A stretch of 10,555 nucleotides of DNA. Source: Nitrospinota bacterium (GTDB taxonomy: Bacteria > Nitrospinota > Nitrospinia > UBA9942 > JAHJSF01). The DNA lies in assembly GCA_018830405.1 (NCBI GenBank), contig JAHJSF010000005.1, positions 1-10,555 on the forward strand, given 5' to 3'. The notes below the pieces were generated by a model. It worked only from the letters and a program-made list of their open reading frames with translations. It was not told where the DNA came from and did no database searches. Below are positions 4,298 to 7,564 of the stretch, piece by piece (the first letter of the stretch is position 1; every line of letters begins with the position of its first letter). The position numbers and the translations under genes were made by a program.

Positions 4298-6028
4298 ATG
4301 AAGATATTTGTAGCCAAAAAGGCCGGGTTTTGTATGGGGGTCAAGATGGCCCTGGATATGGTTCTGGCCACTGCCAAGGAGGAGCGGGGGCCTATCTATG
4401 TCTACGGGTCTCTGATACATAATCCTCAGGTTATACAGCTCCTTGAGAAGAGGGGCATAAAGGTTCTGGCCGAGGGGGAAGACCCGAGCGGGAAGGTGGT
4501 AATTATCCGAACTCATGGTATCAGCCCGGCTGTCAGGCAGGGACTCAAGGATAGGAAGGCGATATTGAGCGATGCCACCTGCCCCCTCGTGGCCAAGGTT
4601 CAGTCGGCCATCAGGAAGAGGGTGAGGAGCGGATACAATATTATCATCGTCGGGAATAAGGATCATGCCGAGATAAAGGGCCTTATCGGTTTTGCCGAGG
4701 GGAAGGGGATGGTGGTTAATTCCATTGAAGAGGTAGAGCCTCTTCCTCATATGGAAAATGTCTGTGTGGTTGGGCAAACTACACTGAATAGGGAGAAGTA
4801 TCGCCTTATAACAGAGACCATCATTAAAAGGTTCCCCAATACGATTGTCGAGGATACTATATGCGAAGCGACAGATCTCAGGCAATCGGAATTGCTTGAA
4901 CTTTCAAAAATGGTCGATGCGGTTGTGGTGGTCGGAGGGAGGAACAGCGCCAATACGAGACACTTGGGACAGATATCGGAATCTGTTGGGACACCTACAT
5001 TCATGGTCGAAACGGAGAAGGAGATTGACCCGGAGATTTTGGGGAGGTTTGAACTGGTCGGCGTAACGGCCGGGGCCTCTACCCCCAACTGGATGATAAA
5101 CAGGGTTATCGAGCGGCTGAAGGAGATAGACAGAAGGAAGCAGAAGGGGTGGAAGAGGTTTGGGGTGTCCCTCCTCGATTTTTTGGTTAAGGGGAATATA
5201 TATATCGCTGTCGGGGCAGCCTTTATTACTTATGCGGCCTCTGTCATGCTGGCCATTCCGGCTAAGTCCGAAACTATAATAATATCGGCTCTATATTTCT
5301 TTTCGGTCTATAACCTGAATCATCTGGCCGATAGAGAGGCGGCTGAGTTTAATGAGCCGGAGAGGGCCATCTTCTACGAAAGGTTTGGCCATATATTGCT
5401 TGGGGCTTCTTATCTTTCCATTATCTCGGCTATTATTCTGGCCTTTATGGAGGGGGTCTGGCAGGGGGGAATCATCCTGGCGGCGGCTATTTTGGGTAGA
5501 TTGTATAGTGTCAATATCATACCTGCTTCTTGGGAGAAGATTCGGGCAAGGAGACTGAAAGATATCCCGGCCTCAAAGGACCTCTTCGTTGCTCTGGCTT
5601 GGGCCACAGTGGCCGGTCTCCTCCCGGCCATTAAAAATTGGGGTGATATTAGTCTCCCCTCCCTCTATGTAACCCTCATATTTATCTTTATACTCATCTA
5701 TATCCGCACTGTTCTATTTGATATAAGGGATATAGAGGGGGACCACTTTGCGGGGATAGATACAATCCCTATCCTGATAGGGAAGGAGTATACCAAGCTT
5801 TTTCTTCTAACCCTTACTTCTATATTGACGGCCATCCTCTATACCTCGTCCCGTGTCGGGATGCTCTCCCCCATCGGATATTACATGCTTCTTCCGGTCG
5901 GCTATACCCTCTTTTATCTCTATCTATACCATAGGCGCATTATCTCGCACGGGATAGCCGCCGAGCTGGTTATCGATGGAACCCTTATCCTTAGTGGGTT
6001 GATTGGGATGGTCTACCTGTTTATTTAG
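4298..6028 (+). CDS. ispH: IspH (LytB) 4-hydroxy-3-methylbut-2-enyl diphosphate reductase fused to a UbiA-family prenyltransferase
   Basis: Residues 1 to about 278 are a full-length IspH, the last MEP-pathway enzyme, which reduces HMBPP to IPP and DMAPP with an Fe-S cluster. Cluster cysteines C12, C95 and C189 are present, as are substrate residues H41 (LIHNPQV), H73 (RTHG), H123 and E125 (NKDHAEI), T161/T162 (GQTTL), S217 and N219 (GGRNSANTRHL) and S261 (GASTPNW). After a charged linker (about 272-287), residues 290-576 form a polytopic membrane domain with about nine hydrophobic helices and a clear UbiA second aspartate motif, DIRDIEGDHFAGIDTIP (475-491), plus RRLKDIPASKDLFVALAWA (418-436). 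The first motif is degenerate: NHLADREAAE at 341-350 keeps N341 and D345 but lacks the third aspartate. The UbiA substrate is unknown. ATG 4298 matches the usual IspH N-terminus, though no Shine-Dalgarno sequence precedes it. The reading frame runs through the linker without a stop. The stop overlaps the convergent sirtuin gene by 8 bp. Confidence 0.95.
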   Translation: MKIFVAKKAGFCMGVKMALDMVLATAKEERGPIYVYGSLIHNPQVIQLLEKRGIKVLAEGEDPSGKVVIIRTHGISPAVRQGLKDRKAILSDATCPLVAKVQSAIRKRVRSGYNIIIVGNKDHAEIKGLIGFAEGKGMVVNSIEEVEPLPHMENVCVVGQTTLNREKYRLITETIIKRFPNTIVEDTICEATDLRQSELLELSKMVDAVVVVGGRNSANTRHLGQISESVGTPTFMVETEKEIDPEILGRFELVGVTAGASTPNWMINRVIERLKEIDRRKQKGWKRFGVSLLDFLVKGNIYIAVGAAFITYAASVMLAIPAKSETIIISALYFFSVYNLNHLADREAAEFNEPERAIFYERFGHILLGASYLSIISAIILAFMEGVWQGGIILAAAILGRLYSVNIIPASWEKIRARRLKDIPASKDLFVALAWATVAGLLPAIKNWGDISLPSLYVTLIFIFILIYIRTVLFDIRDIEGDHFAGIDTIPILIGKEYTKLFLLTLTSILTAILYTSSRVGMLSPIGYYMLLPVGYTLFYLYLYHRRIISHGIAAELVIDGTLILSGLIGMVYLFI

Positions 6029-6842: not shown

Positions 6843-6895
6843 TTTTTATCCTTGCCAAGCTGTTATAGTATTATTCTAACAAAAAGTTGTACCGG

Positions 6896-6912
6896 TTGGC
6901 CAAACAGGCCAA
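6896..6912. promoter_or_regulatory. Inverted repeat in the divergent region, candidate operator
   Basis: TTGGCC (6896-6901) and GGCCAA (6907-6912) form a perfect six-base inverted repeat with a five-base spacer, AAACA. It lies in the 110-base region between the sirtuin start (6842) and the preferred start of the membrane protein (6953). It could be a dimeric regulator site or a weak hairpin. AT-rich stretches on either side (6864-6885 and 6918-6929) could hold -10 boxes for the two directions, but no promoter is convincing. Confidence 0.3.
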
Positions 6913-6952
6913 GGGAGTAAAAATATTTTCAAACTATCTGAAGGAGTTTAGG

Positions 6953-7564
6953 GTGTTAAAGGTAGTCTTAAAAGAGTCGAAGAGGCATATCCCCTTTACC
7001 CTTACAGGTGCCGGTGCCGGAGTAGTGGTTATAGTGCTGATGGGATATTTTCGTATCTCAAAGCCGGTGCTGACCCAACTCTTTAATATCCTCCATCCGC
7101 TCCACGTCTTTCTGAGTGCCATGGCAACTACGGCGGTCTACCTGATATATCGGAGGGACAAGGTTTGGCAGGCGGTTCTTATCGGCTATTTTGGTTCTGT
7201 AGGTATTGCCACCGTCAGCGATTCTCTTATCCCCTATTTTGGGGAGTGGCTCCTCAATATGCCCTACCGGGCTCCCCATATTGGGTTCATAGAGGAATGG
7301 CTGGTGGTAAATGGTCTGGCCATTGCGGGGATTGCTGTGGCCTTCTTCTGGCCCAAGACAAAGGCCCCTCACCTGCTCCATGTATTCTTCAGCACCTGGG
7401 CTTCGCTGCTTCATATTAGTATGGCGATGGGAGTAGCCGACCCGCTAACACTCTTGACGGTCTTTTTCTTTATATTTATAGCGGTTTGGATTCCCTGCTG
7501 TATGAGTGATATTGTCTTCCTGCTACTATTTGTGGGGGGTGATAAAGCCTCGGCTTGTTGTTGA
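6953..7564 (+). CDS. Conserved-looking six-helix membrane protein of unknown function
   Basis: I do not recognise the family with certainty. The chosen start is GTG 6953, because AAGGAG lies six bases upstream (6941-6946). An upstream in-frame TTG at 6887 would add 22 polar residues without a ribosome binding site. From GTG the product has 203 residues and about six hydrophobic helices, near 14-33, 48-66, 73-95, 116-133, 140-159 and 165-194. Polar and metal-ligand-type residues recur at helix ends: HPLH (48-51), ATVSDS (86-91), PHIGFIEEW (108-116), H140, H143 and H154, and WIPCCMSDIVF (179-189). The pattern suggests a metal-binding or redox membrane protein, but that is inference. It ends in Ala-Cys-Cys. 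It stands alone, divergent from the sirtuin and convergent with recG, and only 37 bases separate it from the recG stop. Confidence 0.8.
   Translation: MLKVVLKESKRHIPFTLTGAGAGVVVIVLMGYFRISKPVLTQLFNILHPLHVFLSAMATTAVYLIYRRDKVWQAVLIGYFGSVGIATVSDSLIPYFGEWLLNMPYRAPHIGFIEEWLVVNGLAIAGIAVAFFWPKTKAPHLLHVFFSTWASLLHISMAMGVADPLTLLTVFFFIFIAVWIPCCMSDIVFLLLFVGGDKASACC

Follow-up and report, generated by a model that had tools for sequence, protein, structure and literature searches.

IspH (LytB) is an essential enzyme and an antibiotic target, and it is commonly regarded as soluble. In 2015, Rao et al. described 47 IspH-UbiA 'Rosetta stone' fusions, mainly from Desulfobacterales and all said to belong to sulfate reducers (PMC4746011). 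There, UbiA is suggested to bring IspH to the membrane, and IspH to increase the local level of IPP/DMAPP; attempts to express the intact full-length IspH-UbiA failed, and the sulfate reducers with the fusion also have a separate UbiA/MenA (PMC4746011). Because the exact IspH-UbiA order is described there, the architecture is already known. The first-pass annotation of the locus studied here had left open how widespread it might be; it was published in 2015, is common, and appears to extend beyond sulfate reducers. A literature search for work after 2015 on IspH-UbiA function found none. As for the UbiA fold, AfUbiA has nine helices and an N-terminus that is probably cytoplasmic; its Mg2+ ligands are N68, D72, D198 and D202, and alanine at N68, D72, R22 or K146 abolishes GPP binding (PMC4106721). 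For E. coli MenA to function, the residues matching Y139 and the four Mg2+ ligands are required (PMC4106721).

The window, meaning the whole stretch of 10,555 nucleotides that was analysed, comes from a Nitrospinota genome of 1.42 Mb in 185 contigs, with an estimated completeness of 87%, in which the fusion gene sits on contig 14. The features of the gene, in window coordinates, are the following:

4298-6028, + strand: IspH-UbiA fusion gene; 576 codons, ATG start, no internal stop
4298-5134, + strand: IspH (LytB) domain, residues 1-279; from PF02401, TIGR00216 and structure comparison
5132-5167, + strand: basic linker RRKQKGWKRFGV, residues ~279-290; from the sequence, loop charges and AlphaFold helices
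5168-6025, + strand: UbiA-family membrane prenyltransferase-like domain, residues ~291-576; nine transmembrane helices
5318-5344, + strand: UbiA aspartate motif I, N341-H-L-A-D345-R-E-A-A349; from alignment
5552-5581, + strand: signature loop R419-L-K-D-I-P-A-S-K427-D428, between TM4 and TM5; from alignment
5720-5743, + strand: UbiA aspartate motif II, D475-I-R-D478-I-E-G-D482, intact; from alignment

The gene corresponds to the uninterrupted 576-codon frame read at first annotation, which had also named a complete IspH on the basis of C12, C95, C189, E125 and T161/T162. These residues are all found in the translation, together with H41, H123, S217, N219 and S261, and the active-site residues are all invariant in an alignment of 31 fusions. 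In the Pfam search, PF02401 LYTB matches residues 3-275 with 302 bits (cut-off 24.5); TIGR00216 matches the IspH half with 291 bits (cut-off 187.85), and NF000907 (IspH-RPS1) with 316 bits, under its cut-off of 624. An AlphaFold model of the fusion, built from 31 fused sequences, has a mean pLDDT of 87 and a pTM of 0.74, and its residues 1-279 superpose on E. coli IspH 3t0g with Z 33.9 and rmsd 1.5 over 279 residues. Judged from its residues, the IspH half is predicted to be catalytically intact.

In a survey of 77 genomes of the phylum, the fusion was present in 11; a twelfth match (G009) is a stand-alone UbiA of 274 residues. The fusion is the sole LYTB match in these 11 Nitrospinota genomes, save for a weak 46-bit match in G071, and the only full IspH in 24 further fusion genomes. 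A second, stand-alone ispH, a question raised at first annotation, was not found in the 87% complete assembly of the window genome, where IspH looks both essential and membrane-tethered. The other phylum genomes with IspH have a stand-alone copy or fragments thereof. The Nitrospinota stand-alone IspHs are 31-34% identical to the window IspH and belong to a different subtype, with the motifs GTCFGV, DASCPLV and TAGTSTP in the sister families (L090-L101). Since these families use a distinct subtype at such identity, IspH has apparently been swapped within the phylum; in the tree, monophyly of the fused IspH against the stand-alone types had low support (0.14). On contig C77 of G071 lies a divergent IspH-like ORF of 320 residues (L126), which adjoins a nucleotide-sugar epimerase-like gene and is possibly a functionally different LytB relative.

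The genomes of 84,980 species were then scanned with a KDIP pattern, and the loci overlap in part with the genomes of the phylum survey. In all 34 loci recovered, the UbiA part is preceded in frame by IspH sequence; contig ends truncate L042 and L048. Their record titles, which can err for MAGs, name Nitrospinota, Zixibacteria, candidate division B38, Pseudomonadota and Planctomycetota. The fusion-family profile matched 60 of 392 Planctomycetota genomes (E<=1e-45), nearly all with frames of 565-690 codons, and essentially every strong match there is joined to IspH; it also matched four of nine genomes in the phylum of G087 and four of four in that of G077. Outside the sulfate reducers, the family seems to range more widely than is stated in PMC4746011, taking in Nitrospinota, Planctomycetota, Zixibacteria and other MAG lineages. 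Apart from a few weak short-frame matches (G111, G148, G281 and G442), no clear stand-alone member of the fused UbiA branch was found among the genomes searched. Two strong candidate unfused members, G249 and G392, turned out to be one contig end and one frameshift. The distances in the IspH and UbiA trees were correlated (Mantel r 0.90, n=59, 0 of 999 permutations), which fits a single old fusion followed by joint inheritance, with the reservation that shared species history can also raise r. Some records depart from the common pattern: G343 (Planctomycetota) carries three separate full-length IspH-UbiA copies, by paralogy or contamination, and in G393 (C120) and G360 (C375) the fusion lies within longer frames, of 1193 and 795 codons, which may encode additional domains.

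Residues 290-576 had been assigned to UbiA in the first-pass annotation, with nine helices and a good second aspartate motif. The Pfam search supports this assignment, as PF01040 UbiA matches residues 310-544 with 51 bits (cut-off 34.2). Residues 291-576 of the AlphaFold model superpose on AfUbiA 4tq4 with Z 19.1 and rmsd 3.8 over 261 residues, and the motif D478-I-E-G-D482 is intact. The fused-UbiA family profile matches AfUbiA 4tq3 (E=4.5e-4); the window UbiA domain as a lone phmmer query gave no PDB match. The fused domain does not reach the NCBIfam cut-offs for MqnP or ubiA_other, and its best UbiA-type model is PRK13591, with 53.7 bits (cut-off 238). The AlphaFold model has nine long helices beyond residue 300 and, at the domain boundary, a helix at 264-281 followed by another at 285-298. 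The linker ahead of UbiA helix 1 contains seven Lys/Arg against one Asp/Glu. Because the N-terminus of UbiA is expected in the cytoplasm, IspH should be tethered at the cytosolic face of the membrane, the side on which it had been placed before.

In the active site of the UbiA half, the Mg2+-ligand positions N341, D345, D478 and D482 are all kept in the window protein, as is Tyr403, and K421 occupies the position of AfUbiA K146. In relation to NDxxDxxxD, motif I is incomplete: the Asn and the first Asp are kept, and the equivalents of D69 and D76 are lost. The earlier description 'catalytically intact' is therefore retained for the IspH half and the four UbiA Mg2+ ligands, but not for motif I. 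Residues were counted in 63 non-redundant fusions, about half from the pattern scan and 27 recovered by profile alone. N341 (62/63), Y403 (63/63) and D482 (61/63) are near-fixed, and the D478 position is Asp in 55 of 63; the D345 position is occupied by Asp in 30 fusions, by Asn in 23 and by another residue in 10. Both D478 and D482 are lost in L027 and L039, and D345 in L044, L047 and L049 and in L040, L041, L046 and L048. I423, P424, S426 and K427, which form the IPxSK loop, are invariant (63/63), also in the 27 fusions recovered by profile alone, and W435 is invariant among the fusions. K421 was rejected as an invariant diphosphate lysine, being present in only 36 of 63 in the wider set; the first sample had been biased by the KDIP pattern.

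As controls, 21 stand-alone UbiAs of the same phylum were selected without any motif pattern. Motif I was kept in 21/21, with the N68, D72, D76 and K146 positions always conserved, and motif II was kept in the 18 MqnP-like controls. The fused UbiA family looks, from these alignments, to have a remodelled active site, which seems competent in the window lineage and eroded in others. Since N341, D345, Y403, D478 and D482 are retained together in 23 of 63 fusions, and the D69 and D76 equivalents are Asp in 0 of 63, the family's conserved function may be something other than prenyl transfer.

We propose, giving the reading an even chance, that the protein is a membrane-anchored IspH, the only one detected in its genome, whose UbiA half binds a prenyl diphosphate and probably transfers it to an acceptor other than menaquinone. 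The C-terminal UbiA-type domain would anchor IspH at the cytosolic membrane face, and IspH would reduce HMBPP to IPP/DMAPP at the membrane, the site of elongation and consumption of prenyl diphosphates. Mg2+ would mediate the binding of a prenyl diphosphate by the UbiA domain, which in the window lineage would probably pass the prenyl group to its acceptor; since a separate enzyme of MqnP type is retained in most fusion genomes, this acceptor is probably not the head group of menaquinone. In this way, the fusion would bring the supply and the use of isoprenoid precursors together in a single location at a constant 1:1 ratio. Channelling, use of a C5 donor and co-regulation, suggested at first annotation, are possible extensions; direct channelling forms no part of the proposal. 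The strictly kept fusion makes membrane organisation or control of the end of the MEP pathway testable, and the partly eroded UbiA site provides a series of natural variants with which catalysis could be told apart from binding.

The Mg2+ ligands are eroded in several sub-lineages, yet fusion and IPxSK loop are kept without exception, and this UbiA branch is strictly linked to IspH. These observations also suit a second, rather unlikely reading, in which the UbiA half serves as an anchor in the membrane and a sensor of prenyl diphosphates, regulating or positioning IspH, and has no enzymatic activity or has lost it. Bound long-chain prenyl diphosphate would then report supply to IspH, and the precedent is mammalian UBIAD1, a binding partner of HMG-CoA reductase that responds to geranylgeranyl compounds (PMC4374513, PMC8641950). 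That resemblance is an analogy only, however, and the 97-100% conservation of N341, Y403 and D482, with each catalytic residue tested being kept in the window protein, argues against this reading. We consider unlikely the more specific form of this idea, that the UbiA half is a built-in sensor controlling the last MEP enzyme, in which catalysis was lost repeatedly and binding and fusion were kept; if true, it would be a bacterial single-chain counterpart of the link between UBIAD1 and HMG-CoA reductase.

Our preferred reading, a prenyl-binding UbiA half with a non-menaquinone acceptor, also draws on the genome context. The window genome encodes a second UbiA on contig 39, over the TIGR01475 cut-off and MqnP-like, which answers the earlier question of a canonical ubiA/menA beside the fusion; it also encodes a UbiD-family decarboxylase and IspG. 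By Pfam search, the genes near the fusion in the window include an oligopeptide-type ABC transporter, a sirtuin and recG. A hydrophobic protein of ~225 residues, without Pfam or NCBIfam match, is encoded at 6887-7564 (+). No acceptor-pathway gene adjoining the fusion is conserved across phyla; the neighbours are lineage-specific and suggest no single pathway. In ~25 Planctomycetota loci (L061-L085) the fusion is immediately followed by a gene for a DUF502 membrane protein, and a 485-residue protein without Pfam match is the neighbour in the phylum of G087. Two other neighbours, mqnL (TIGR03701 over cut-off), directly upstream of the fusion in L016, and a BchU/CrtF-like O-methyltransferase gene, downstream of it in six loci (L025, L029, L031, L032, L035 and L042; 9 and 37 nt away in L025 and L032, the two measured), would suit a UbiA domain acting as a second quinone prenyltransferase, for menaquinone or a related quinone, fed by IspH. 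In the partial genome G069, moreover, the fused domain is the only UbiA found. We judge this role unlikely, given that each of these neighbours is limited to one lineage and that a separate UbiA is present both in most fusion genomes, where it is of MqnP type, and in the fusion-bearing sulfate reducers, as UbiA/MenA, according to PMC4746011. In L016 (797-2385), mqnL is spread over two ORFs whose homology overlaps, which a frameshift in the MAG or a partial duplication might explain.

The in-frame junction recurs in ten Nitrospinota relatives, with frames of 578-598 codons, and this junction also occurs in dozens of independently assembled genomes, with frames of 565-640 codons. That two adjoining genes were merged artificially is practically excluded by the conservation of the junction in those assemblies and in cultured species already published (PMC4746011); this conserved architecture rules out a missed stop or frameshift as the source of the fusion, since two domain searches, the AlphaFold model and the ten Nitrospinota fusions agree. 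The single-chain IspH-UbiA fusion is confirmed as genuine. An in-frame GTG at codon 290 (window 5132-5170), with the purine-rich GGAAGAGG on its 5' side, precedes the first UbiA helix, and an internal start there, yielding a free UbiA half, is conceivable.

Among known systems, the IspH-RPS1 fusions of Clostridia (NF000907) likewise join the C-terminus of IspH to another domain, but the partner there is ribosomal protein S1 and here UbiA. In UBIAD1-HMG-CoA reductase (8djk), a UbiA-fold protein is likewise physically linked to an enzyme at a control point in isoprenoid synthesis, by analogy only; those are two separate eukaryotic proteins of the mevalonate pathway, whereas the window protein is a single chain. 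AfUbiA of Archaeoglobus fulgidus (4tq3/4tq4) shares its fold with the window UbiA half at ~14% identity, and its N68, D72, D198, D202 and Tyr139 correspond to N341, D345, D478, D482 and Y403; the equivalent of D76 is Ala in the window protein, and K427 and W435 are additional residues, family-invariant in the fusions. The closest system is that of Rao et al. (2015), whose fusions, as described in PMC4746011, have in common with the window protein the IspH-then-UbiA order, about nine helices, a separate UbiA/MenA and the proposed tethering. They come from sulfate reducers and the window fusion from Nitrospinota, and the Desulfobacterales proteins are compared by their description only. In the accessible part of PMC4746011 no mention was found of the remodelled motif I or the invariant IPxSK loop of the fusions studied here. 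To what was known in 2015, the present analysis adds a broader range, the status of the fusion as sole IspH, the remodelled UbiA site, the absence of a clear stand-alone member of the branch, and the separate MqnP-type UbiA in most fusion genomes.
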